Source: Chlorobiota bacterium
GTDB lineage: Bacteria; Bacteroidota; Ignavibacteria; Ignavibacteriales; Melioribacteraceae
Length of the DNA stretch: 36,865 bases
Direction: 5' to 3'
NCBI GenBank assembly: GCA_013151245.1
Contig: JAADIR010000237.1
Span: 1 to 36,865, forward strand
The notes beneath the pieces were generated by a model. The model had not been told where the DNA came from, ran no database searches, and was given only the letters and a program-made list of their open reading frames with translations. The position numbers and the translations under genes are program-made. Positions within the stretch are counted from its first letter, which is position 1. Each line of letters opens with the position of its first letter. Below, piece by piece: positions 2,266 to 15,443 of the stretch.

Positions 2266-2667
2266 ATGGGACAGCAGCAATTACTTTTAATCGTTTTAGG
2301 TCTAATAATTATTGGCGTAGCAATTGTTGTTGGAATTAACCTTTTTAAGAGTAATGCCGTAGAAGTAAAGAGAAATAATATTATTGACGATTGTATGAAT
2401 TTGGCGACGCTGGCTCAACAACATTACAAAATACCGGGAGCGATTGGGGGAGGGAATAATTCTTACGACGGTTCGTCGGGCGGAACCGCTTGGAAAATTC
2501 CCGCGCAACTGGTTGTAAATGCAAATGGACATTTCCAAATTCAAAGCATTGGTAAAAGTGAATTGAAAATTTTGGGCACCGGGAATGAGGTTGTTACTGG
2601 AAATGACTCGGTACAGGTTGTCGTTACAATAACGCCAAACGATATCACAACGCAAATAATTCATTAA
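2266..2667 (+). CDS. Atypical type IV pilin-like protein 1
   Basis: This 133-residue protein opens MGQQQLLLIVLG and continues as one hydrophobic helix to about residue 25, followed by an amphipathic alpha-helix and a small Gly/Asn/Thr-rich beta domain, the layout of a type IV pilin. It lacks the usual charged leader and the Glu at position +5. If a prepilin peptidase cuts it, the only plausible site is after Gly2. It is a clear paralog of the next gene: the first twelve residues are identical, and both keep the NLA..AQQ.Y and GGGN segments. An upstream in-frame ATG at 2197 would add 23 polar residues before the hydrophobic helix, so I place the start at 2266. No good Shine-Dalgarno is present, unlike the second pilin, which suggests a lower-expressed or minor subunit (inference). 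Confidence 0.75.
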   Translation: MGQQQLLLIVLGLIIIGVAIVVGINLFKSNAVEVKRNNIIDDCMNLATLAQQHYKIPGAIGGGNNSYDGSSGGTAWKIPAQLVVNANGHFQIQSIGKSELKILGTGNEVVTGNDSVQVVVTITPNDITTQIIH

Positions 2668-2768
2668 CGGTAAAATATACACGTAGAATGTTCTTAAACA
2701 TTTTGAAAGAAACATGTGGTTTTTAGATAAAAGTTGATATACATTAAAATTTTGACGAAAACAATCTT

Positions 2769-2785
2769 TGGCACAATTGTTTTTC
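2769..2785 (+). promoter_or_regulatory. Weak candidate sigma-54 promoter for pilin 2
   Basis: TGGCACAATTGTTTTTC has a perfect -24 box (TGGCAC), but the -12 box reads TTTT instead of TTGC. It sits about 42 nt before the ATG at 2828. It is listed because the paralogous pilin upstream has a better match in the equivalent place. Confidence 0.25.
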
Positions 2786-2827
2786 ACAATAAACAAACAT
2801 CATTAACAAACTAAAAGGAGTTACGTT

Positions 2828-3214
2828 ATGGGTCAACAACAACTTTTACTCATCGTATTGGGTGTAATCATAGTAGGTATCGCAGTAGTAGTCGGTATCA
2901 ATGTATTTACAGCCAGCAGTATTGAAGCTAACAGAAACGCCGTTATCGGCGATTTAACAAACTTAGCTTCTATGGCGCAGCAATATTACAGAAAACCAAC
3001 CGCGCTCGGCGGCGGAAACCAAACCTTTACCGGCTGGACGGTTCCACCGGCGCTTGCGTCAAACGCTAACGGCGGCTACACAGCGTCGGTTGCGGCTCAA
3101 GCGGTTACATTAACGGGCACCGGCACTGAAACCGGAAATGACGGTTCCAACAACGTCAAGGTTACAATGATAGTGGCGCCGGATTCAATTACTTCAACTA
3201 CTATCAATAATTAG
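2828..3214 (+). CDS. Atypical type IV pilin-like protein 2, likely major pilin
   Basis: This 128-residue protein opens MGQQQLLLIVLGVIIVGIAV and is built like its upstream paralog: a hydrophobic N-terminal helix (about residues 5-28), an amphipathic helix with NLASMAQQYY, then a GGGN turn and a Thr/Ala/Gly-rich beta domain of about 75 residues. There is no FTLIE-type motif and no Glu at +5. A strong ribosome-binding site (AAAGGAG) precedes the ATG, and a strong intrinsic terminator follows directly. Together these point to a separately transcribed, abundant product, as expected for a major pilus subunit (inference). The pilus assembly genes start about 100 bp downstream. An exported non-pilin helix protein is the alternative, but the context makes it less likely. 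Confidence 0.8.
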   Translation: MGQQQLLLIVLGVIIVGIAVVVGINVFTASSIEANRNAVIGDLTNLASMAQQYYRKPTALGGGNQTFTGWTVPPALASNANGGYTASVAAQAVTLTGTGTETGNDGSNNVKVTMIVAPDSITSTTINN

Positions 3215-3240: not shown

Positions 3241-3275
3241 AAGCTAATAAACATAATGTTTATTAGCTTTTTTTT
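3241..3275 (+). terminator. Intrinsic terminator after the major pilin
   Basis: A 13-bp perfect stem (AAGCTAATAAACA pairing with TGTTTATTAGCTT) with a 3-nt loop is followed by a run of T. It separates the pilin transcript from the assembly genes. Confidence 0.9.
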
Positions 3276-3311
3276 ATCTATATTTATAAATAAATATTTA
3301 AGGTTGTGCCA

Positions 3312-4655
3312 ATGATTGAATTAAGGTTTCAAGCCGTTAAACCGAACGGCAGCCCAATTAGCGGAACACTGACGTCTCCTACAATGCGCGAAGGCAAAGC
3401 AAAAGTTGCCAAACTTGCCGAAAAGCATAATCTTAAAATCAAAAAGATTGAAAAGAAATCATCTTTCATTTATAAGATTCAAAAAGGAAATGAAAAACCC
3501 GTTACCGGAGAGCAAAAAGCTTTTTCAAAAGAAGAAGTGAAAACGGCTCTTGCAAAATTAGGTTATAAAGTCCATTCGGTAAATAGAAAATTATTAGATT
3601 TTAATCTTAAACCCCCGCCGCAGGAAATTCTTTCTTACGTAAAAATAAGCGCCGAATTGATGGAGCAGAAATTGCCCTACAGCGAAATAATGACGCTTTT
3701 AATCAGCGACCTCGAAAATAAAACTCTTCGCGACACGCTTAAACAAATAAACGGAGAATTAAAAAAAGGAACCGACAGTCAAACCGTATTTTTAAGATAT
3801 GAATCGGTTTTCGGTAAGTTCACTTCATATATGCTCGGCTTGGCGGCAAAAAGCGGCAATATGTCGGAAATATATAAAGCCACTGCAAAGTTCCTTGAAC
3901 GGAGAATGCAATTTAGGAAAGATTTGCGAAGCGCGTTGATTACGCCGCTGATAACATTGTTTGTCCTTTTCCTTGCGGTTCTTTTTTATGTCGGATACAT
4001 TTTTCCCGAAACCGCAAAGCTGTTTGTTAAATTCGGTATTGAGCTGCCGCCTCTTACTGCGGCTACATTAGCTTTCAGCAATTTCTTGATGAATAACGCC
4101 ATCCTTGTTTCTTTGGCGGTCGTTATTCCTCCAATTCTATTGATACAATTCAGACGCACAAAAAAGGGACGTTTTTTATTTGATAAGTACATGCTTAAAA
4201 TTCCGGTAATCGGCTCATTGATTCATAAAACATTAATCGAAGTATTTTGCCGTGTTTTTTACACGCTTTACAGCGGATCGGCGGAAAGCATTGAACCGAT
4301 TAGAATTGCGGCGGAAGCTACCGACAATAAATATTTCGAGCATCAAATCAAATCCGTCGCCATTCCGCTGATGATAAAAAAAGGAACCGGAATCACGGAA
4401 TCTTTTGAAGCGGCAAATATTTTTACCGATACGGCGCTTTCACGCTTCCACTCCGGCGAAGAAACCGGAACAATAAAAAATACCGCTTTACAATTAGCAA
4501 ATTATTACGAAAGCGAAACTGTTTTCAGATTAAAAAATATAATTGAATTGATCCAAGTAATGATCGCGATGGTTATTATGATAGTAATGATTGGTTTAAC
4601 GCTTGTTTCTGCGGAAACAGCTACAATAAACCCCAAATCGCCGGTCTTAAGGTAA
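3312..4655 (+). CDS. pilC: Type IV pilus inner-membrane platform protein PilC/GspF
   Basis: PilC is the polytopic inner-membrane platform on which the PilB and PilT motors act. The 447-residue protein has the short N-terminal GspF-type segment (RFQAVKPNGSPISG), a linker of about 60 residues, and two T2SSF repeats (roughly residues 105-230 and 310-430). Three hydrophobic segments are visible: about 218-242, about 255-285, and about 415-440. The typical GETG-like element is present as SGEETGTIKN. I place the start at ATG 3312, with AAGG 8 nt upstream, rather than GTG 3306, which is too close to that site. It is the first gene of the assembly operon after the pilin terminator. Confidence 0.93.
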   Translation: MIELRFQAVKPNGSPISGTLTSPTMREGKAKVAKLAEKHNLKIKKIEKKSSFIYKIQKGNEKPVTGEQKAFSKEEVKTALAKLGYKVHSVNRKLLDFNLKPPPQEILSYVKISAELMEQKLPYSEIMTLLISDLENKTLRDTLKQINGELKKGTDSQTVFLRYESVFGKFTSYMLGLAAKSGNMSEIYKATAKFLERRMQFRKDLRSALITPLITLFVLFLAVLFYVGYIFPETAKLFVKFGIELPPLTAATLAFSNFLMNNAILVSLAVVIPPILLIQFRRTKKGRFLFDKYMLKIPVIGSLIHKTLIEVFCRVFYTLYSGSAESIEPIRIAAEATDNKYFEHQIKSVAIPLMIKKGTGITESFEAANIFTDTALSRFHSGEETGTIKNTALQLANYYESETVFRLKNIIELIQVMIAMVIMIVMIGLTLVSAETATINPKSPVLR

Positions 4656-4694: not shown

Positions 4695-6491
4695 ATGATA
4701 GATTCACAACTTGAAATGACTGATAAAATCGGTTATCTATTATTAAAAAAAGGAATAATCGATTCGAAAATTTTAGAAGACGCGCTCAGAATTAAAGCGG
4801 AAGATCAATCAAAGCTTAAAAGAAATCTTGCCCAAATACTTGTCCAAGAATTTAAATTTGATCATGATACGATCTTCCGGGAAGTTGCGGTGCTTTACGC
4901 CTTCAAAGAAATTACTATCCGTATGGACGACCTTACCGAAGAACGCGTTAAATCTATTCAGCGGCTTATTAATTCTTTCGGAGACGAATTAAAAACGCTT
5001 CTTCTCGAACACAAAGTAATTCCGTATAAATATGACGAGAGAGTAAAAGACAAACTGATTTTGGCTGCGGTTGACCCTACGGACCGAGCGCTGACAAAAA
5101 TTGCATACACGCTCAACGCCAGAAAATACGAAATAAATTATCTCCGAAAAAAAGATTATGAAAAGATAATCGAAATTTTAGTGCCTCCGGAAAACGAATT
5201 TCTGAAGATGATGGAGGAAGCCGACGAAGAGTTGATGCTGCCCTTAGACGATGAGTCGAGCGTTGACGAAGAAGAAATTGACGCCGAGATCAACAAAAGC
5301 GCGCTCATTAACCTTGTTGAAGGCGCATTGATTGAAGCAGTCCGCCGCGGCGTTAGCGATATCCACATCGTTCCCGTCTCGGGGGTGAGAACCGATTTCC
5401 ATTTTAGAATCGACGGTAAACTGCAGCTCTGGCACTCTCAGGAAAATACGCGACCCGAAGCTGTTATGGCAGTCGTTAAAGACCGTGCAAAAGGTCTCGA
5501 CCGTTTTGAACGCGAGAAAGCGCAGGACGGTTTTATTCAGAGAGAAATAGACAACACAATTATTCGATACAGAGTTTCAGTTCTTCCGATGGTTGGAACC
5601 GAGTTGAGAAATAAATTTGAAACGATTGTAATTCGTATTCTTGACGACCGTAAAGTAATTACCGATTTGGATAAATTGGGATTAACCGGCTACGCAAGGG
5701 AAGCGTTCAACAGAGCGATTCGTCAGCCGCAGGGAATGGTAATTCTAACCGGTCCTACCGGCAGCGGTAAAAGCACTACGTTAGTTGCCGCGTTATATCA
5801 AGTTATTACGCCGCAAGTAAACGTCCTTACGGTGGAAGACCCGGTCGAGTATGTAATTAAGGGCGCGCGCCAATTAAAAATCGGACATAAAATGGACTTC
5901 GAACAGGCAATACGTTCCATTCTTCGTCACGACCCCGACATTGTTCTGGTTGGCGAGATGCGCGATAAGGAAACCGCCGAAACCGCTATTAAGCTGGCTA
6001 ACACCGGTCACTTGACTTTTTCTACGCTTCATACAAACGACGCCCCAAGCGCCGTCGCAAGGCTGTATAAAATGGGAATTGAACCGTTTCTGATTGCTTA
6101 CGCCATTAACATTATTGTCGCGCAGCGTTTGATAAGAACGCTTTGCGCTTTCTGCAAAAGAAAAATTGAAAAGGTAGATACGGACTTATTAAAATCAGCC
6201 GGTATTACAGATATCGAGGAATGGCAGAACGCAGAAATTTATGAAGCGGTCGGCTGCGAAAAGTGTCATAATACCGGTTATAAAGGAAGAATGGCTATTC
6301 ACGAATCGCTCTATTTTACAAAAGAAATTCGCGAAATAATTGTGCGTTCCGGCGAAGAAGTTGACGAAGCGAAAATCAGAGCGCAGGCAAGAGCGGACGG
6401 CACTTTGAATTTGAGAGAATCCGGACTTCAAAAAGTAAGGCTCGGTTTAACTTCATTGCAGGAAGTTATTGCCGGCACAATGGAAGAATAA
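4695..6491 (+). CDS. pilB: Type IV pilus extension ATPase PilB/GspE
   Basis: This cytoplasmic hexameric motor ATPase powers pilus polymerisation. The 598-residue protein has an N-terminal MshEN/GspE-N region (about 8-165), an acidic linker (about 170-200), then the secretion ATPase core with Walker A GPTGSGKS (353-360), an intact Asp box VEDPVEYV (380-387), Walker B DIVLVGEMRD (415-424), and the His box around LHTND (445-449). The zinc-binding tetracysteine motif of PilB/GspE is present (C484, C487, C521, C524). Its length and all catalytic motifs are normal. It lies 39 bp after pilC and before the second ATPase. The tetracysteine and the MshEN region distinguish it from PilT. Confidence 0.95.
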   Translation: MIDSQLEMTDKIGYLLLKKGIIDSKILEDALRIKAEDQSKLKRNLAQILVQEFKFDHDTIFREVAVLYAFKEITIRMDDLTEERVKSIQRLINSFGDELKTLLLEHKVIPYKYDERVKDKLILAAVDPTDRALTKIAYTLNARKYEINYLRKKDYEKIIEILVPPENEFLKMMEEADEELMLPLDDESSVDEEEIDAEINKSALINLVEGALIEAVRRGVSDIHIVPVSGVRTDFHFRIDGKLQLWHSQENTRPEAVMAVVKDRAKGLDRFEREKAQDGFIQREIDNTIIRYRVSVLPMVGTELRNKFETIVIRILDDRKVITDLDKLGLTGYAREAFNRAIRQPQGMVILTGPTGSGKSTTLVAALYQVITPQVNVLTVEDPVEYVIKGARQLKIGHKMDFEQAIRSILRHDPDIVLVGEMRDKETAETAIKLANTGHLTFSTLHTNDAPSAVARLYKMGIEPFLIAYAINIIVAQRLIRTLCAFCKRKIEKVDTDLLKSAGITDIEEWQNAEIYEAVGCEKCHNTGYKGRMAIHESLYFTKEIREIIVRSGEEVDEAKIRAQARADGTLNLRESGLQKVRLGLTSLQEVIAGTMEE

Positions 6492-6566: not shown

Positions 6567-7793
6567 ATGCTTGATGAAGCAAAACAAATATTAGCGAAGT
6601 ATGCGGAAAGAATTCCGCCGACGGTTATCGGTCCCGAAAAAGTTAATTTTATAATTGATCATACTGATGAAATTTCGCCGGAAGAAAAACTTGTTTTGCT
6701 AAAATATGTTAACTACATGCTGACGTTGATGATTGAGAGAGACGCCTCGGATATTGAAATCGGCGGACACGGAAACGACGAATATGTATGGTTCAGGATT
6801 TTCGGTAAAAAAGAAAGAGTGAAAGACCTGCCCCGGCTTACGGTTAACGAAACTTCGGTTCTGATTATCAATCTGCTCAATCTTAACCAATGCAAGCATC
6901 TTTGGGTTAGCCGCAACCTTGATTTTTCATACACTTTCCGCTACGAAAAATTCAACAAAGACGTTCGTTTCAGAGCGGACGCTTATTTTGATTTGGATTC
7001 GCTGGCGCTTAACATGCGCTCTATTTCGGTTTCCACGCGACCGCTGGATTCGCTTGAGTTTCATCCGAACACGATAAAAACAATGAGCCACAACTACATA
7101 AAATTCGGGCTTTCGCTGATAACCGGTATTACCGGTTCCGGTAAATCCACAACGCTCGATTCTATTATCGACCATCACAACCAATACGATCCGGCTCATA
7201 TCGTAATTATCGCTTCGCCAATTGAATACGTGCACGAATCGAAAGTTGCCATAATTCGTCACCGCGAGGTTGGACGAGACGTTCTTTCATTCAAAGACGG
7301 CGTTATTCAGGCTTTGCGCCAAGACCCTGATATAATTGTAATCGGCGAGATGCGCGACCCCGATACCATTATGGCGGCGCTGGAGGTAACAGATACAGGT
7401 CATAAAGTCTTTTCTACACTCCATACCTCTTCGGCGGTCGAATCAATCGACCGTATTATTGCGGAAGTAAATCCGGTTGAACAAGACAGAGTAAGGAACC
7501 GTTTAGCCGACGTTTTAATTTCCTTGGTCTCGCAAAAGCTTGTTCCCAGCCTCGACGGACGCAGAGTTTTGGCAAAAGAGGTTCTTTTGGTTACGCCAAG
7601 CGTTAAAGCGGCAATCAAAAATAATAACACCAGCGAAATCTATATGATGATAAATCAGGGTGGAAATCAAGGTATGGTAACTATGGAACAAGATTTGATT
7701 AGACTTTACAAGCAAAGAAAAATTTCCAGAGAGAATGCTCTTGCGTATGCAAATAATAAAACAAGAATATTACAATTACTTAAAGGCGTTTAA
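6567..7793 (+). CDS. pilT: PilT-like secretion ATPase with altered Asp box
   Basis: This 408-residue member of the PilT/PilU retraction ATPase branch has no tetracysteine motif. It has Walker A GITGSGKS (187-194), Walker B DIIVIGEMRD (255-264), a PilT-like His box (STLHTSSAVESIDRII), and a PilT-like tail (EVLLVTPSVKAAI, then GMVTMEQDL). The Asp box is unusual: canonical PilT has EDPIE, but here the codons read A-S-P-I-E (about 216-220), so the acidic pair is lost, while the neighbouring PilB keeps ED. It could be a weak or accessory motor of the PilU kind, or have rearranged catalysis. It is on average about 50 residues longer than typical PilT, mostly at the N-terminus. The next gene starts 3 nt after its stop. 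Confidence 0.88.
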   Translation: MLDEAKQILAKYAERIPPTVIGPEKVNFIIDHTDEISPEEKLVLLKYVNYMLTLMIERDASDIEIGGHGNDEYVWFRIFGKKERVKDLPRLTVNETSVLIINLLNLNQCKHLWVSRNLDFSYTFRYEKFNKDVRFRADAYFDLDSLALNMRSISVSTRPLDSLEFHPNTIKTMSHNYIKFGLSLITGITGSGKSTTLDSIIDHHNQYDPAHIVIIASPIEYVHESKVAIIRHREVGRDVLSFKDGVIQALRQDPDIIVIGEMRDPDTIMAALEVTDTGHKVFSTLHTSSAVESIDRIIAEVNPVEQDRVRNRLADVLISLVSQKLVPSLDGRRVLAKEVLLVTPSVKAAIKNNNTSEIYMMINQGGNQGMVTMEQDLIRLYKQRKISRENALAYANNKTRILQLLKGV

Positions 7794-7796
7794 TAA

Positions 7797-9356
7797 ATGA
7801 AACCTTTTGTAACTCTTTACTGTGAAGGAACGGAAACAAAGGTTGCTCTTTTTTCTTTGGAGAAAGAGGATATTAAATTGTTGAAAACCATTTCCGTACG
7901 CTCTGCCGATTTAGTCGATACGGGTGCGCCTACGGCGGATCCTACCGATTTCAGTCTCGAAGAAGTCGGGGAAGGAATTTCGTTTGACGGCGGCGTTGAC
8001 GAAGGCGGAGCGGGATCAACGGTTGACGCTTCCGAACTTTCCCTAATCAGTTCGGCTTTACAGGACGTGAAACTAAGTCAAACTCTCTTTCTGCCGATAG
8101 TAACCGAACCGGTTGTGAATTTCCATATTTACGAAGGGGAAACTATTGCCGACAGAAACAAACAACTCGGCGCTATTATTACGGACATTTCGCTTCAGAA
8201 AGGAATAACGGTAAGAAAAGATTATTTGGATTTTATTGATTACAATACAAATTCCAAATTAGTCGTTTTTATTGAAGAAGGAATTCCCTGCGCCGATTTG
8301 GTTTATGAATTAGCCGATTACAATAAAAAAAGATATCTGAAAATTCCTTCTATTAAAAACGCCGAATTATCGCTTGCCTATTACGTTTCCAAAACAACAA
8401 AATTCTTCCCCGAAGATTTTTCGCTGATCATTTATACCGGCAAAGAATACAGCAAGCTCATTTTTCTTGAAGGTCAGAACATTAAGCATATCGGTTCCAC
8501 TTTGGATATCGGAACGCAGAATCTTCAAACTTACGACGTTTATTTTTCGAAGATTTTGCTTGAAATGGAAAACGGCGGAATTCCGCGGCTTGATAACGTT
8601 ATCCTTTGCGGCGAAGATAATTCTGAGAATCTTATTCTTTCTTTCTACGGAACTTTCCCGGAAGCAAATGTCAGCGAATTAAAATTTGACGCAGTTGATA
8701 TTTCGGACATTTCGGAAAGCGATCAGGAAAATATTTCCGCTTTCTCAATTCCTATTGCAGCCGCCGTTGAATTTTACAGCGAGCAAAAGAAAGAATATAA
8801 AGGAATTAATATTCTTCCGAATTATATTAAAGAAAATCAAAAGTTCTTCCAATTCGGCTGGCATAGTTACGCAATGCTCCCTATTCTTTTCGGACTTACA
8901 TTTTTCTTTACTTATCATATTCTTGATAATTATCGCCAACTGAGAGAATTAGACGCGGAAATTTTGCGTTTGACAAATCTCAAAAGTCAGAACAGTATTC
9001 TTATGGACCAGATTACCCCGCTGAATACGAAAATCGCTAGTTTCGGAGAAACTCAAGCGCTGCTCGACAGCGCCTCGACCGGCACCGAAATTTACTGGCA
9101 GATGCTGGAAAAAATTTCCGATTTCCTCGAGCGGAGAAGAAACTTCTGGGTTACAAAATTGGAAACCGTAGTTCCGGACGAAGTCAGGTTATCCGGTTTC
9201 TCGCTTTCTAGGAGCGTTTTAACCGAATTTGCAGATTACAACAACTCGTCCCTTTTGCACAGCATAAAATATGATCCTTTAAGAGAGAAAAACGCTTTTC
9301 AATATACGCTAAATTTCAAATTGTATAACGACACATTGAATGTAAATGGACCGTAA
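7797..9356 (+). CDS. PilM-PilN fusion, pilus alignment complex
   Basis: This 519-residue protein combines two proteins usually encoded separately. Residues 1 to about 330 resemble the cytoplasmic actin-like PilM, with an acidic, Gly-rich insertion near 40-75. At 336-341 the sequence GINILP matches the conserved INLLP motif at the N-terminus of PilN, followed by a single transmembrane helix (about 356-378), a coiled coil (about 380-420), and a small periplasmic ferredoxin-like domain ending the chain. The topology is the same as GspL of type II systems, so a GspL-like origin is the alternative. The INLLP motif at the junction favours a PilM-PilN fusion. It overlaps the next gene by 11 bp. Confidence 0.8.
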   Translation: MKPFVTLYCEGTETKVALFSLEKEDIKLLKTISVRSADLVDTGAPTADPTDFSLEEVGEGISFDGGVDEGGAGSTVDASELSLISSALQDVKLSQTLFLPIVTEPVVNFHIYEGETIADRNKQLGAIITDISLQKGITVRKDYLDFIDYNTNSKLVVFIEEGIPCADLVYELADYNKKRYLKIPSIKNAELSLAYYVSKTTKFFPEDFSLIIYTGKEYSKLIFLEGQNIKHIGSTLDIGTQNLQTYDVYFSKILLEMENGGIPRLDNVILCGEDNSENLILSFYGTFPEANVSELKFDAVDISDISESDQENISAFSIPIAAAVEFYSEQKKEYKGINILPNYIKENQKFFQFGWHSYAMLPILFGLTFFFTYHILDNYRQLRELDAEILRLTNLKSQNSILMDQITPLNTKIASFGETQALLDSASTGTEIYWQMLEKISDFLERRRNFWVTKLETVVPDEVRLSGFSLSRSVLTEFADYNNSSLLHSIKYDPLREKNAFQYTLNFKLYNDTLNVNGP

Positions 9357-10245
9357 ACTAAAAAACACATTAATTCTCATCGCGATAATTCTCGTCATTG
9401 CGCTAGGAAGCGGAGCTTTCAGTTATTGGTATCAAGACGGAAAAATCACCGAGAAACAAAAAACGATTAAGAGTTTGAATCTTAACGCTTATGATACGAA
9501 CGACTTAATCGAACAATTGAAGCAGCTGAAAGCGCAAGCCGCTCAGTTGGATTCAATTCTTTCGCTGCGGAAGTTTAACATACCGAATTCGCTTAAACAG
9601 TCCGCCTTCTTTGAATTCGTTAACAAAGTGAGTTTCAGCTTTATGCCGAATTCTTACGTTAACGTTGAATATGAGGGGCAGGATTACCAAAGCGAATTTG
9701 AGTATTTCACCTATAAACTTACGGGCGTTGCTTCATTTAACGATTTATATAAGCTTATATTTGCAGTTGAACATAGCAAAGAACTTAAAAAAATCTTATA
9801 TACTCATTTTAACAACTTCGTTAAAGTAACTCCCGAAGGCGACGCATACTATTTGGTTGATTACGATATCGGCGTAGCCGTTTATTACGCGCACGACGAT
9901 AGATTTGCGGCGGCCGAATTTAAGGAGAACAGGTTAACTCCTAATCCGTTATACGATATTTTCTACCCGCTTATCCGCAATGAAATTCCGCCGAATAATG
10001 ATAATCTGCTGGACGTTCAAACTGCGCGCTTGCTTGCTTTAATTCCCGACGGCGCGTTCCTTTCCGATGAAAACGGCAATACATTTTTGCTTTGGGAAGG
10101 AGATAAAGTTTATCTTGGCTATCTAACCAAAATCGATTATGGGAAAAGCGAAGTTCGTTTCGTTCTTAATAAAGGCGGGATAATCGAAAAAGTAGATCTT
10201 AAGCTTGAAAAAGGAAATGAAAAAAATAGAGAGTCGGTAAAATGA
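9346..10245 (+). CDS. PilO-like protein with PilP-like C-terminal domain
   Basis: This 299-residue inner-membrane protein has a short cytoplasmic tip, one transmembrane helix (about 8-27), a coiled coil (about 33-75), and a periplasmic ferredoxin-like domain (about 80-185), which is the PilO/GspM plan. After a linker rich in Pro and Asn (about 195-220), the last 80 residues form a second beta-rich domain (GDKVYLGYLTKID then VRFVLNKGGI) that resembles the PilP/GspC HR domain, which contacts the secretin. No separate pilP gene is present, which supports a PilO-PilP fusion. The start overlaps the upstream gene by 11 bp, and the stop overlaps the secretin start (ATGA). Confidence 0.7.
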   Translation: MDRKLKNTLILIAIILVIALGSGAFSYWYQDGKITEKQKTIKSLNLNAYDTNDLIEQLKQLKAQAAQLDSILSLRKFNIPNSLKQSAFFEFVNKVSFSFMPNSYVNVEYEGQDYQSEFEYFTYKLTGVASFNDLYKLIFAVEHSKELKKILYTHFNNFVKVTPEGDAYYLVDYDIGVAVYYAHDDRFAAAEFKENRLTPNPLYDIFYPLIRNEIPPNNDNLLDVQTARLLALIPDGAFLSDENGNTFLLWEGDKVYLGYLTKIDYGKSEVRFVLNKGGIIEKVDLKLEKGNEKNRESVK

Positions 10246-11549
10246 AAAAAATTAAACTAATAATACTTGCTTTCGCGATAGCGTTCTCGGGAATTTACGC
10301 TCAGGTAAATACTGATAAAGATATCCGTGATTATGTTGACCCTGAAGAATTGGTAACGCTTTCGGAGGATATTTCATTTAATGACGCGGTATCCGTTCTC
10401 AGTAAGATAAGCGAAAAAATGACCGGGAAGAAAATTGTTTCAACGGTTCATTTGAACGCTCCTTTAGGATTGGAGATAAAAAATCTTCCCTATTGGAAAG
10501 CGCTGATTATTATTACGCAATATCATAATCTTAAATTTGAAGAAAGAGAAAGCGTAATTGTCATCCAACAAAAGCACGACCCAAATAAAGAGCTTCCCGA
10601 AGATATTTACGCCGACGTGGGCTCCAGAGAAGTTGAGATATCGGCAATACTTTTTGAAGCCAACGTTCAAAAAATGAGAGAGCAGGGAATCAACTGGGAA
10701 ATGCTGCTTTCGCAGAACGGTCTTTCAATCGGCAGCGGTATAACCACTTTTACCGAAGGAAAACAGACCGATCAAACAGCCGGAGGAGCGTCTTCTCAAT
10801 CAACTACTCAAAAGACGCCTGAGTTTACTATTAGTCCCGAAGCGCAATTTACGGTCGGTAATTTTACGGGGAGTTTAACGGCAGTTTTCAAATTCTTTGA
10901 AACCGAAAATTTGGGCGAAATTATTTCCCGTCCTTCAATTACCGTGCGCGATAAAAAAGCCGGAAGAATTCAAATCGGGTCGGATATTTCAATCAAACAG
11001 CGCGACTTTGCCGGAAACGTAATAGACGTATTCTACTCAACCGGTACTATTATTGAAGTTACGCCGTATATTTACAACGAAGACGGAATAGATTACATCC
11101 TTCTCAAATTAAAAGTTGAAAGAAGTTCAGCCGAACCGAATGTAATTAGCACGGAGATACGGAAAACAACGGCAAGCACGGAAGTGTTGATGCTAAACGG
11201 AGAGCAGACTGTTATCGGCGGGTTGCTTGTGAATGAAAAAGTAACCGTCCGAAGGGGAATCCCTTTTTTAAAGGATCTTCCTTGGTGGGTTTTCGGCATT
11301 CGATATCTCGCCGGATATAACGAAGACCAGAACGTTCAAAAAGAAGTTATTATTCTTATCAAGTCGGTCCTTGTCCCGACGTTGAAAGAGAGAATTAAAA
11401 ATATGAGAAAAGACAAGTTTTTCCGCGAAAGAATAAAGAATCATAACGACTTGGATTATTACAAGAAAGAAACAGATAAGTTTAATAAAATGCTTGAAGA
11501 AAAACGCGCCGCGGAAGACGAAAAGGAGTTAGAGGAGGATAATAAATAA
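10242..11549 (+). CDS. pilQ: Short type IV pilus secretin (PilQ/GspD family)
   Basis: This is the outer-membrane channel through which the pilus emerges. The 435-residue precursor has a Sec signal peptide (1-20, ending IYA-Q), an N0/STN-like domain (about 28-112), then a stretch beginning VEISAILFEANV that leads directly into the secretin core (about 195-378). The core carries the family signature TVIGGLL followed by GIPFLKDLPW. Typical PilQ or GspD proteins exceed 600 residues; here AMIN and extra N-domains are missing. A Gly/Ser/Thr/Gln-rich insertion at about 163-193 probably forms the gate loop. The C-terminus ends in a long, highly charged helix (about 380-435), possibly a pilotin or envelope contact. 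It is the last pilus gene of the operon. Confidence 0.9.
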   Translation: MKKIKLIILAFAIAFSGIYAQVNTDKDIRDYVDPEELVTLSEDISFNDAVSVLSKISEKMTGKKIVSTVHLNAPLGLEIKNLPYWKALIIITQYHNLKFEERESVIVIQQKHDPNKELPEDIYADVGSREVEISAILFEANVQKMREQGINWEMLLSQNGLSIGSGITTFTEGKQTDQTAGGASSQSTTQKTPEFTISPEAQFTVGNFTGSLTAVFKFFETENLGEIISRPSITVRDKKAGRIQIGSDISIKQRDFAGNVIDVFYSTGTIIEVTPYIYNEDGIDYILLKLKVERSSAEPNVISTEIRKTTASTEVLMLNGEQTVIGGLLVNEKVTVRRGIPFLKDLPWWVFGIRYLAGYNEDQNVQKEVIILIKSVLVPTLKERIKNMRKDKFFRERIKNHNDLDYYKKETDKFNKMLEEKRAAEDEKELEEDNK

Positions 11550-11563
11550 AGTAAGGACTTTTT

Positions 11564-11926
11564 ATGGAATCGATTCTCATCATTGACGACGATATAAATC
11601 TTGGAACCGTATTAAAAGAAGAGTTGCAGGAAATCGGGTATAACGTTCATTTTAGAAATAGCGCAGATACGTCGTTTGCGTTTCTGGAAAGTAACGTGGA
11701 AATAGATCTAATATTGCTGGACCTGAAAATGCCCGAGAAAGACGGCTTTTATGTTTTGCGTAAATTGCAACAAGACGGTTACTCCATAAAAGTTATCGTG
11801 CTCACCGCGTTTGCAGACGTAAAGAGCGCGATTGATTCGGCAAAACTTGGAGCGTCGGATTTTATTTCAAAACCTTACGATCTTGACGAATTAATTATTA
11901 CAATTCGAAAAGTTTTACAAACATAA
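11564..11926 (+). CDS. Single-domain response regulator (CheY-like receiver)
   Basis: The 120-residue receiver has no output domain. The acidic pocket (D8-D10), phospho-acceptor D53 in LLDLKMP, T81 in VLTAF and K103 in ISKPY are all present, so it should be phosphorylated normally. It is preceded by AAGGA, begins 14 bp after the secretin stop, and ends 1 bp before the large hybrid kinase gene. It is therefore likely co-transcribed with both. It may relay phosphate from the hybrid kinase or act on the pilus motor, as PilG/PilH-type receivers do elsewhere (inference from position). Confidence 0.88.
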   Translation: MESILIIDDDINLGTVLKEELQEIGYNVHFRNSADTSFAFLESNVEIDLILLDLKMPEKDGFYVLRKLQQDGYSIKVIVLTAFADVKSAIDSAKLGASDFISKPYDLDELIITIRKVLQT

Positions 11927-11927
11927 A

Positions 11928-14900
11928 ATGAAACTGAATGTCAAACTTTTACTTATTACCTTTTCCATCGTTTTACTCGTAACGGTCACTTCGACCGTTA
12001 TTTTATATTCGGTAACCAACACATTTTTTAATTCTCAAAATTCGAAATTAATCTTAAAATCGACAAACGATTTTGTTTTCCTTTTACAAACCTCTTACAA
12101 TCAGCTTGATGAAAGTTTTAATTCAATTTATCGAGGCGACGTTTCCGGAATAACGTCCGAAACGCTCAAAGGAACCGGAATTGATTTTATCTTCGGCAAA
12201 AAGCAAAACGGAAATGAATATTTCATTTTGAAAGATTCGCAATCCGCCGTTTCTACAATGAGCCGTGAAGAGTTTTTGATGAAATATCCAAACGCAATAA
12301 TTAAGGAAAGCATAAGAAACGGAGAACCGATTTTTTACGGTCAATTGATTACCGCCGAATTTTTAGACGAGCTTTCAAAGAAAATTGACGCCGAGGTTTC
12401 TCTTATTATTGATGATTCTCCTTTTTTAATTTCAAACGAAACTAAGAACGCTCAATATCTCTTTACTATTTCAAACTCAATTAAAAAACTGAAAAGGGAA
12501 AATAACTTCGACCTTTTCAACAAGCGTTTGGAAGACGTTGATTTTTGGGCGTCGTATTATGTGCCGCGGACATTGACGCACGATAAAGCAAAAACGGGTT
12601 TTCTTATTTTCCGAACTCCAAAAGAAGGCGTTGAATACGCCGCTCAGATGAAACTGCTGATTATTATCATCCTTGTTTCCGGAGCCGCTATTTCAATTAT
12701 TTTTGTGTTATTAATGACGACAAAAATCAGAAAACAAATCTCCTATTTTAGCGAAACGGCAATGGCTACCGTTAAGGGAGATTTAGACAAAAGAATTCCT
12801 ATTTTATTAAAAGACGAAATAGGCAGTTTCGGCGAAACTTTTAATAAGATGCTCGACGAACTGCAGCGGAAAGAAATTCAAGAAAAAGAATATTCGGAAT
12901 TCTTGGTTTTGCTCAATCAGAATCCTACAATAAAAAAAATCTCGGAAACTTCTCTCGAAAAAATAATTTCCGCAGGCAGCTTCACTTTCGGCGCGCTTTA
13001 TTTAATTGAAGAAGAAAGAACTCGTTTGATCGCCACTTACGGAATCGGACGCGGAATAGCAAAATCCCCCGACGACATTGACGTTTACGGCTACGCAATT
13101 AAAAAGAAAGAACCGATTGATTTTACATTTGACAAAAATCCTCCTATTATCCGTTCGGGCACAATTGATATTCCTATTAAATCGCTTTTCATTTTCCCCA
13201 TTATTTTTAATAACGAAGTAATCGGGATCATTGAGCTTGCTTCAAAAGAAGAAACTCTTTTCGATATAAAAGAATATTTTAAAAAAATCCACCATCAGCT
13301 TGCAATAGGTTTGATGAATGCGCGTTCTTTGGAACAACTTGAAAACCTTGTTAAACAATTGCGCGAACTGAACGAAGATTATCAAAAACAAAACGAGCAG
13401 ATACGAAAGCAGAATAAGGAACTGCTTGAACTTCATCAGCAGCTTCAAGCAAAAGCGGCTGAGCTTGAAAAGCAAAAGTTGAAAGCCGAAGAACTAACGC
13501 GGGTAAAATCTCAGTTTTTGGCAAATATGTCTCACGAACTCCGCACTCCGCTAAGCTCAATTCTCGGGCTTTCCGAATTGGTAATGAACGACAGAGCGAC
13601 GCTTCCGAAAACCAGGGAACGAATGAGCGTCGTTCTGCGCAACGGCAATAAACTTCTCTCGCTGATAAATAACATACTAGAGTTCTCCAAATCCGACGCC
13701 GGCGCTGAAAAGCTGAACGTAAATGAATTTTTATTGAGCGATTTTATTTCCGAACTTCAAACTTTTATCAAACCGCTTGCCGCAGAAAAAGATTTGGATT
13801 TTATTGTTGACACAATTAAACAACAGGACGTTGTTCTGAAAACGGATAAATCAAAAATGGAAAGGATTTTCATAAACCTTCTCGGCAATGCCGTGAAATT
13901 TACTAACGAAGGCTTTGTTCAGTTTAAGGTGGAATTTATTGGCGACGATGGAATCCTTTTCAGCATAAAAGACACCGGAATAGGAATCCCTGAAACGGAG
14001 CGCGAAAATATTTTTGAGGAATTCAGACAAGTAAACAATGAAACGACCCGAGAGAATGGCGGAACGGGACTCGGGCTGGCAATTTGTAAAAAGTACGTCA
14101 ATCTTTTACATGGGAAACTATCTTTCCGCAGCAAAGAAAACGAGGGCACGGAATTTATTGTTTCTTTCTCCGGAGTAATTGTGCGAAAAATTGATAAGCC
14201 GCTTGTTGAATCGGACTTTACGCAAACGGAACGCGAAGAAGCGAGAAAAATTGTGCTTCTTATAAATTCTAATAATGAAATTCACAGGATCATCGGAAAT
14301 TATTTATCCGATAATAAACTCGAACTAATCTCTTCGGAAACGGCGTCCGACGGGTTCAGAAAGATTGTTGAATTGAAACCCGATTACACAATTTTGGACG
14401 TTGACCTTCCGGACGAAAACGGCTGGTCGCTCCTCAATAAAATAAGAAAGGAAACCGCGTTATCGGAAATTCCGGTTATCCTTACAAAGTTCAGCGCTAA
14501 CAGCAATCTCGGTTACGGTTTTCTGATGGACGACGTTAAATCCGATACAAACCTCTGGGAAGATTTACGGAAAGAAATTTCATCGTTCAATCAGCTTGAG
14601 CAAAATTCAATTTTTGTAGTAAACGGAAATGAGAAAGAATATATTCCGATCCGCTCGAGCGTTGACGCGGAATTTCATTTTCATAATAATAAAGAATTCA
14701 AACTGCTTACGGATATTTTTATCAACCACAGGCCCAAACTTGTTATTATTCATGCCGCCGAAAACGATTTTGACGAACTTGAATTTATCGACGAATTAAA
14801 AAACGACTTACTTACAAAAGGAATAAAAATTTGGCTGGCGCTTCCTGATAAACTTTCTGAAAAAGCGGTAAATAAATTGATCGATAAAAGCGAAAAAATA

Positions 14901-15443
14901 CTCAAGGCGAGAAATCTTCACCGCTTTGACGTATTGCGAATACTCCGCGACAGAATGCATTTGGAGTTTAGGGAAAACATAAAAACAAATTTGATAAAAG
15001 AGGGCGGCGAAAAAAATAATTTTAAATTTGAAGATAATTCTTTAGTTTCAGAAGAGCGAAAAATAAAAGTTCTTATTGTTGACGATGATCCGGATACGCT
15101 TTTCACTGTCGGGGAAATGATTGAAACTCTCGGATATGAAACCAGGTTCGCCGGCAACGGCGTTGAATGTTTGATTTCGCTGAGCGCATCGGCTCCCGAT
15201 TTGATTTTGCTGGATATCATGATGCCGCAGATGGACGGTTTTGAAACGATCAAAAGAATTAAAGCAAACGACGAAACCAAACATATTCCGGTCTTTGCGC
15301 TCACGGCTCACGCAATGCTTGACGATAAGGATATAATAGAACGGAACGGCTTTATCGGACTGATTACTAAACCGGTCAACAGACTGGAACTTGCTTTTCG
15401 AATTAAAGAAATTATTTCAAAAGGAATTTTGAACAAGCCATGA
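11928..15443 (+). CDS. Large hybrid sensor histidine kinase (HAMP-GAF-HisKA-HATPase-REC-REC)
   Basis: This 1171-residue membrane kinase has TM1 (about 7-28), a periplasmic sensor of about 210 residues, TM2 (about 243-265), HAMP (about 266-318), a GAF-like domain (about 325-460), and a long coiled coil (about 465-525). HisKA follows, with H536 in MSHELRTPLS, then HATPase with NLLGNAVKF, DTGIGIP and GTGLGLAI. Two receivers come after it. The first (from about 773) keeps D824 in ILDVDLPDENG, but its acidic pocket has become NSNN, so it is probably inactive. The last (about 1045-1165) is intact, with D1096 in LLDIMMP. The ligand of the sensor domain cannot be read from sequence. Its stop overlaps the next start (ATGA). 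Confidence 0.93.
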   Translation: MKLNVKLLLITFSIVLLVTVTSTVILYSVTNTFFNSQNSKLILKSTNDFVFLLQTSYNQLDESFNSIYRGDVSGITSETLKGTGIDFIFGKKQNGNEYFILKDSQSAVSTMSREEFLMKYPNAIIKESIRNGEPIFYGQLITAEFLDELSKKIDAEVSLIIDDSPFLISNETKNAQYLFTISNSIKKLKRENNFDLFNKRLEDVDFWASYYVPRTLTHDKAKTGFLIFRTPKEGVEYAAQMKLLIIIILVSGAAISIIFVLLMTTKIRKQISYFSETAMATVKGDLDKRIPILLKDEIGSFGETFNKMLDELQRKEIQEKEYSEFLVLLNQNPTIKKISETSLEKIISAGSFTFGALYLIEEERTRLIATYGIGRGIAKSPDDIDVYGYAIKKKEPIDFTFDKNPPIIRSGTIDIPIKSLFIFPIIFNNEVIGIIELASKEETLFDIKEYFKKIHHQLAIGLMNARSLEQLENLVKQLRELNEDYQKQNEQIRKQNKELLELHQQLQAKAAELEKQKLKAEELTRVKSQFLANMSHELRTPLSSILGLSELVMNDRATLPKTRERMSVVLRNGNKLLSLINNILEFSKSDAGAEKLNVNEFLLSDFISELQTFIKPLAAEKDLDFIVDTIKQQDVVLKTDKSKMERIFINLLGNAVKFTNEGFVQFKVEFIGDDGILFSIKDTGIGIPETERENIFEEFRQVNNETTRENGGTGLGLAICKKYVNLLHGKLSFRSKENEGTEFIVSFSGVIVRKIDKPLVESDFTQTEREEARKIVLLINSNNEIHRIIGNYLSDNKLELISSETASDGFRKIVELKPDYTILDVDLPDENGWSLLNKIRKETALSEIPVILTKFSANSNLGYGFLMDDVKSDTNLWEDLRKEISSFNQLEQNSIFVVNGNEKEYIPIRSSVDAEFHFHNNKEFKLLTDIFINHRPKLVIIHAAENDFDELEFIDELKNDLLTKGIKIWLALPDKLSEKAVNKLIDKSEKILKARNLHRFDVLRILRDRMHLEFRENIKTNLIKEGGEKNNFKFEDNSLVSEERKIKVLIVDDDPDTLFTVGEMIETLGYETRFAGNGVECLISLSASAPDLILLDIMMPQMDGFETIKRIKANDETKHIPVFALTAHAMLDDKDIIERNGFIGLITKPVNRLELAFRIKEIISKGILNKP

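Follow-up and report, generated by a model that had tools for sequence, protein, structure and literature searches.

The 36,865-nucleotide stretch analysed here (the window; contig JAADIR010000237.1 of assembly GCA_013151245.1, from a Chlorobiota bacterium of the Melioribacteraceae) carries two neighbouring genes, MGQQQ-1 and MGQQQ-2, located next to a pilus assembly operon and named after the first residues of their products. Our analysis makes it very probable that they encode the major pilins of a leaderless type IV pilus that is independent of prepilin peptidase, and that the whole pilin set of this system is translated leaderless. The start codons of the pilins are found at the canonical cut point or one to three residues ahead of it. 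With slightly less confidence, we consider it probable that a lineage relocated all of its pilin start codons to the site of processing and subsequently gave up both the prepilin peptidase and pilin N-methylation, that this state is spread over about half of the sampled Ignavibacteria genomes and part of Calditrichota, and that prepilin processing is thus not universal for type IV filaments.

Both MGQQQ proteins begin with MGQQQLLLIVLG and share about 50% identity; in neither of them does the first lysine or arginine occur before residue 28, and no acidic residue is present among the first 30. A sequence-only reading of this DNA had described paired pilin-like proteins beside a full pilus assembly operon, lacking the basic leader, the G-F cleavage context and the Glu5 of standard prepilins. 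Both open reading frames are there, a pilin fold is obtained by modelling, and the same features are lacking in the 157 distinct proteins, taken from the fetched loci of relatives, on which our residue statistics are based. Residue 1 is encoded by ATG in 125 of them, by GTG in 17 and by TTG in 15, and by nothing else. Positions G2, Q4, Q5 and L7 are invariant, and K/R is absent from residues 2-22 and D/E from residues 2-12 in every protein. Upstream, the reading frame is closed after 0-25 codons, and a start codon at least 4 codons upstream is possible in only 5/146 relatives (none in 141/146), MGQQQ-1 of the window being one of the five, with an in-frame TTG at 2197. Shine-Dalgarno-like ribosome sites precede 122/157 genes. 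A class III signal peptide is by definition a hydrophilic leader of 6-26 amino acids ending in Gly (PMC4471445). Because start codons, inferred as they are from reading the codons, are found only at position 1 and with the usual ribosome sites, there is no room for such a leader on the MGQQQ pilins. Neither a leader (in the 157 proteins, and likewise in the minor pilins V, W and X described below) nor a major-pilin Glu5 was found. As a contrast set, 27 canonical prepilins from clusters resembling type II secretion systems (T2SS) in related genomes all carry a leader ending in Gly and a Glu5, of which the leader alone is informative, since the search pattern demanded Gly and Glu. Searching relatives for MGQQQ proteins next to pilB and pilC, as the sequence-only reading had proposed, placed an MGQQQ gene at most 1.2 kb upstream of pilC in 54/60 pilC-bearing loci. 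The pattern is not due to chance, because G2, Q4 and Q5 are invariant in the 157 relatives and because of this position upstream of pilC.

The absence of a prepilin peptidase gene, which had been noted for the window, extends to the whole genome, where a profile search with Peptidase_A24 gave no match up to E = 1. The same search was positive in 12/14 reference genomes used as controls, archaeal peptidases included. Among 294 genomes of the class, MGQQQ proteins were found in 157, the PilC domain (T2SSF) in 156, both in 153 and neither in 134 (Fisher p about 1e-74 for co-occurrence). Peptidase_A24 exceeded the cut-off in 14/294 genomes, all 14 inside the 153, so that 139/153 genomes with MGQQQ and T2SSF have no detectable A24; 136 of the 139 also carry the minor pilin W. 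Seven single-contig genomes (G032, G113, G119, G153, G165, G180 and G183) possess pilins and PilC and show neither an A24 nor an N_methyl match, and A24 was likewise not detected in Stygiobacter electus strain 09-Me 3 (L010) or in the complete chromosome CP070637 (L066). Nor is there a canonical pilin set elsewhere that could serve this machine, an outcome that would have spoken against the sequence-only reading: no protein exceeds the N_methyl (PF07963) cut-off anywhere in the window's genome, and only 20/294 class genomes encode one that does.

Where A24 is present, it sits apart from the MGQQQ genes. In the 14 positive genomes it lies in separate T2SS-like or pilus clusters, mostly beside ordinary "GFSLTELM" prepilins, the exceptions being G248 and one stretch of G013, in which A24 is accompanied by an ATPase and other cluster genes only. 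We considered that the A24 of relatives might serve the MGQQQ pilus; this is not needed, as within the class the A24 genes are in separate clusters. A24 was detected in 12/16 class genomes bearing a GspF-type gene; of the four in which it was missed, three either have a completeness of 74-85% or carry a broken GspF. In G180, a single-contig genome without A24, an internal stop interrupts a GspF-like gene (G180:C1:2518637-2519617), which looks like a canonical system decaying beside an intact leaderless one. Of 40 Calditrichota genomes, 11 encode MGQQQ and 31 A24; A24 is lacking in 5/11 MGQQQ-positive genomes vs 4/29 of the remainder. The A24 gene of locus L163 adjoins a separate secretin/PilN/PilC cluster, and that of L162 has no neighbours other than a divergent ATPase gene and uncharacterised genes.

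When the neighbourhoods of 80 loci were compared, we found a second gene set, V-W-X, which sometimes adjoins the pil operon and which the sequence-only reading had missed; these minor pilins, encoded in a separate operon, are leaderless too. In the window's genome V begins with MNTGQMMITIGALMLL, W with MGFSSLLDILGSTLIGG and X with MGGKAALLLVLGFSLIF. Each opens straight with its hydrophobic helix in about 50 relatives, without a leader, and no cleavage motif is common to the three. W is present in 159/294 class genomes, that of the window included, and 153 of these have MGQQQ. Its AlphaFold model has a pLDDT of 86 and a helix from 2 to 58, and the top 21 PDB matches obtained with Foldseek, which are chains of a few PDB entries, are all minor pseudopilins of the GspJ/XcpW/EpsJ type or TTHA1219 (probability 0.98-1.00, best E 4.5e-4). 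Judging from this model, W is a minor pilin of the known GspJ/XcpW fold without a leader. Of 51 W sequences, 49 have an acidic residue (D/E), at position 6 in 14 and at position 8 in 35, and hhalign pairs SLLD of W with TLIE of GspJ at a low probability that informs on register only. In the short form of W, Met is at -1 and the acid at +5, that is, translation begins at the canonical cut. The long form starts three residues ahead of the +1 register and, often reading MG-F-S-T, may be a relic of a G/F cleavage site. Only W, among the pilins found, retains an acid in the Glu5 register. X has a long head, perhaps a beta-solenoid tip, with weak Pfam matches only (DUF4900, DUF7305, bactofilin-like), and searching the PDB with a profile of V produced no match. 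We also considered whether the pil operon hides a peptidase gene and rejected this, its conserved extra genes being V, W and X. A conserved lipoprotein-like gene pair (clusters c17 and c18) lies beside the minor pilin genes in L070:5487-6737, L074, L076 and L078.

For the major pilins, the AlphaFold model of MGQQQ-2, built from an 81-sequence alignment, is a "lollipop" of mean pLDDT 86, with a helix from 3 to 55 and a head of four strands. Neither MGQQQ protein is assigned to any family in Pfam or NCBIfam, and when MGQQQ and V were compared by hhalign with canonical pilins encoded in T2SS clusters, the probability was not significant, the helix being too simple. The model, the gene neighbourhood and the minor pilins together suggest the major-pilin fold.

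We propose the following scheme. Deformylase and methionine aminopeptidase would expose Gly2, giving a short, uncharged and unmethylated N-terminus (GQQQL...), and the hydrophobic helix would serve as an uncleaved signal anchor in N-in/C-out orientation, inserted through the signal recognition particle and Sec. PilB and PilC could then pull subunits out directly, with no charged leader needing removal; in canonical systems, the charged leader has to come off before assembly. Unprocessed prepilins can harm the cell (Synechocystis delta-pilD, PMC8546353). Because there is neither a prepilin peptidase nor a leader, N-methylation by PilD would not take place. V-W-X would make the priming tip, PilT would retract the filament and the secretin would let it through. 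The Gln triplet, together with the acidic residue of W, may stand in for the Glu5-to-N-terminus contacts of canonical pili. Glu5 mutants of canonical pilins form no homopolymers (PMC4471445); the MGQQQ major pilin must therefore use another contact, for which the invariant GQQQLL would be the obvious candidate.

Several points weigh against this scheme. A PDB profile search with the major pilin ranks Geobacter PilA, PilE1 and GspG high, yet with E values of just 0.13-1.3, which is suggestive, and Foldseek gave no significant match for its model. The claim that the peptidase is absent is carried by one Pfam model, applied to genomes that are mostly metagenome-assembled. An uncharged N-terminus, by the positive-inside rule, helps the N-in topology little. 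Finally, we deduce from genes and models both that a filament forms and how its mature subunits begin.

One alternative is that MGQQQ pilins are processed after all, either by a prepilin peptidase that has diverged from the A24 model or by an unrelated protease removing Met-Gly. Gly2 is indeed invariant (157/157), like the Gly-1 of prepilins, although the needs of methionine aminopeptidase or helix packing could also account for this, and a few genomes show weak sub-threshold A24 matches. We nevertheless find this unlikely: the model that yields nothing in the window's genome up to E = 1 is positive in 12/14 controls, 12/16 GspF-type class genomes and 31/40 Calditrichota, the pil operon holds no conserved extra gene that could be a peptidase, and W, V and X share no cleavage motif. 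The sequence-only reading had left a choice between differing processing and a separate class of subunit, and had regarded cleavage after Gly2, with a two-residue leader, as the only plausible cut. That processing must differ stands; cleavage after Gly2 finds no support, there being no A24 in this genome or in 139/153 genomes with pilin and PilC.

The peptidase might instead be merely missing from draft assemblies or binned out, as this genome consists of 303 contigs with a completeness of 93%, and the relatives are mostly metagenome-assembled. However, the 139/153 genomes that lack it include the seven in a single contig and many with a completeness rating of 99-100%, and it is also absent from CP070637 and S. 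electus 09-Me 3. Draft loss is hence hardly credible; unless the A24 model misses the gene, the single-contig genomes have already disproved it. Little more probable is the idea that MGQQQ proteins are membrane accessory proteins rather than filament subunits, and that the machine uses other, unseen pilins. Their direct homology to known pilins is weak and orphan MGQQQ genes exist away from pil genes, but the genome holds no canonical pilin, the MGQQQ genes are tightly linked to and co-occur with PilC, the model is that of a lollipop pilin, the pilin genes have their own terminator, as expected for an abundant subunit, and W is clearly of the GspJ fold with the same leaderless start.

Returning to the locus itself, the window derives from contig C11 of a 3.58 Mb genome, and public genomes closely related to it come from Melioribacteraceae and other members of the Ignavibacteria. 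The two pilin genes are flanked by aspS on one side and by the assembly genes downstream on the other (Table 1), and several traits of the type IV filament superfamily (type IVa pilus-like) are present: a PilB-type traffic ATPase, a PilC/GspF platform, a secretin and PilT, and, in the models of MGQQQ-2 and W, a pilin fold. Across the 80 loci compared, the order MGQ-MGQ-pilC-pilB-pilT-pilM/N-pilO-pilQ-response regulator-kinase is conserved. PilC is the sole T2SSF protein found by profile search in its genome.

Table 1. Coordinates of the pilin and pilus assembly features, in the window unless a contig is named
Feature	Position	Strand	Evidence
MGQQQ-1, putative leaderless major-type pilin, 133 aa	2266..2667	+	ORF and translation; profile member, E 1.1e-59
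MGQQQ-2, putative leaderless major-type pilin, 128 aa	2828..3214	+	AGGAG ribosome site immediately upstream; AlphaFold pilin fold, pLDDT 86
Terminator-like (intrinsic) hairpin and T run, gap between pilin genes and pilC	3241..3277	+	RNA fold z = -3.6
PilC/GspF inner-membrane platform	3306..4655	+	PF00482 1e-25, over cut-off
PilB extension ATPase	4695..6491	+	T2SSE 1.2e-102; TIGR02538 1.4e-124, below equivalog cut-off
PilT retraction ATPase	6567..7793	+	TIGR01420 2.2e-95, 319.8 bits vs cut-off 319.1
PilM/PilN-like inner-membrane protein	7797..9356	+	Position and architecture only; conserved place in 38 complete operons
PilO-like protein, one transmembrane segment and coiled coil	9346..10245	+	Assigned by position only
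PilQ-type secretin	10242..11549	+	PF00263 3.7e-23, 82.4 bits; TIGR02515 6.5e-28
Response regulator and hybrid kinase	11564..15443	+	PF00072 2.1e-24; usually 3' of pilQ in relatives, order conserved
Minor pilin operon V-W-X	L189:3-1628 (contig C112 of the same genome)		

The hairpin between the pilin genes and pilC is perfect, with arms of 12-13 bp and T residues behind. Comparable hairpins, diverged in sequence, occur at this gap in 20/52 loci vs 5/260 shuffles, and would yield more pilin than machine, which fits an abundant subunit encoded ahead of a low-level machine. The positions of the PilM/N-like and PilO-like genes fit PilM-N-O(-P), but neither has a significant Pfam or NCBIfam family match. 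The PilM/N-like protein, of 519 aa, possibly consists of an actin-like part, a transmembrane segment and a coiled coil, and could be a divergent PilM-PilN fusion. The hybrid kinase after pilQ has 1171 aa and, with the response regulator, may form a pilus-linked sensory system. Rearranged loci were observed in L067 and L071, where an MGQQQ pilin is directly followed by pilM/N-pilO-pilQ and V-W-X in a stretch without pilC, pilB and pilT. A third, orphan paralogue, which begins with MGTQQLLFIVLG (MGTQQ...), lies on contig C187 of the same genome (L003:62-466), apart from the pil genes and with a PAS-type sensor gene nearby. Orphan copies are common among relatives (L020, L030, L044, L048, L060 and L063).

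Type IV filaments are defined, detected and classified by means of the class III signal peptide and the peptidase that cuts it. Prepilin peptidase is listed as a core, ancestral component (PMC4471445, PMC6668835), and Denise et al. take it to be an ancestral feature of every type IV filament (PMC6668835). As predicted from its genes, the MGQQQ system would work like a type IV pilus, yet it shows neither of these two hallmarks. If this is true, leader removal is one way to make a mature N-terminus and not a mechanistic step of assembly, nature offers a test of what Glu5 and N-methylation do, and current pilin finders likely miss whole pilus systems. It would also account for annotation finding pilB, C, T and Q in these bacteria with "no pilA, no pilD". 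The genome paper of Melioribacter roseus reported pilT, Q, B and C as present and pilA and pilD as not found, and concluded that the complete set is probably not present (PMC3534657). Our results suggest that the "missing" pilA is there in leaderless form, and that pilD is truly gone. We found no description of leaderless or PilD-independent pilins in the open literature, subscription papers being outside the search.

Loci without a peptidase gene have also been reported for the MSHA pilus, the genomes concerned having one elsewhere, and for Nanoarchaeota filaments, where the peptidase is undetected and reported only as an absence (PMC6668835, PMC4471445). The MGQQQ locus resembles both in this respect, and a leaderless pilin set is described for neither in the passages concerned. 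The likeness to T2SS pseudopili (GspG-K) lies in the fold of W, which resembles GspJ/XcpW/EpsJ; in contrast, the MGQQQ system has PilT, and the separate T2SS-like clusters of 14 relatives have canonical leaders together with A24. W also matches Thermus TTHA1219 by fold (probability 0.99-1.00) and weakly by sequence, with its acid aligned to the Glu of that protein, and differs from it in beginning at the hydrophobic helix. A prepilin peptidase is known to serve the Thermus system. The closest overall likeness in gene content is to type IVa pili, with which the MGQQQ system shares PilB, PilC, PilT, the secretin, genes that by position are PilM/N/O-like, a lollipop major pilin and minor pilins including one of PilW/GspJ fold. 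It differs from them in lacking a prepilin peptidase, in the leaderless state of every pilin found and in the absence of Glu5 from its major pilins.
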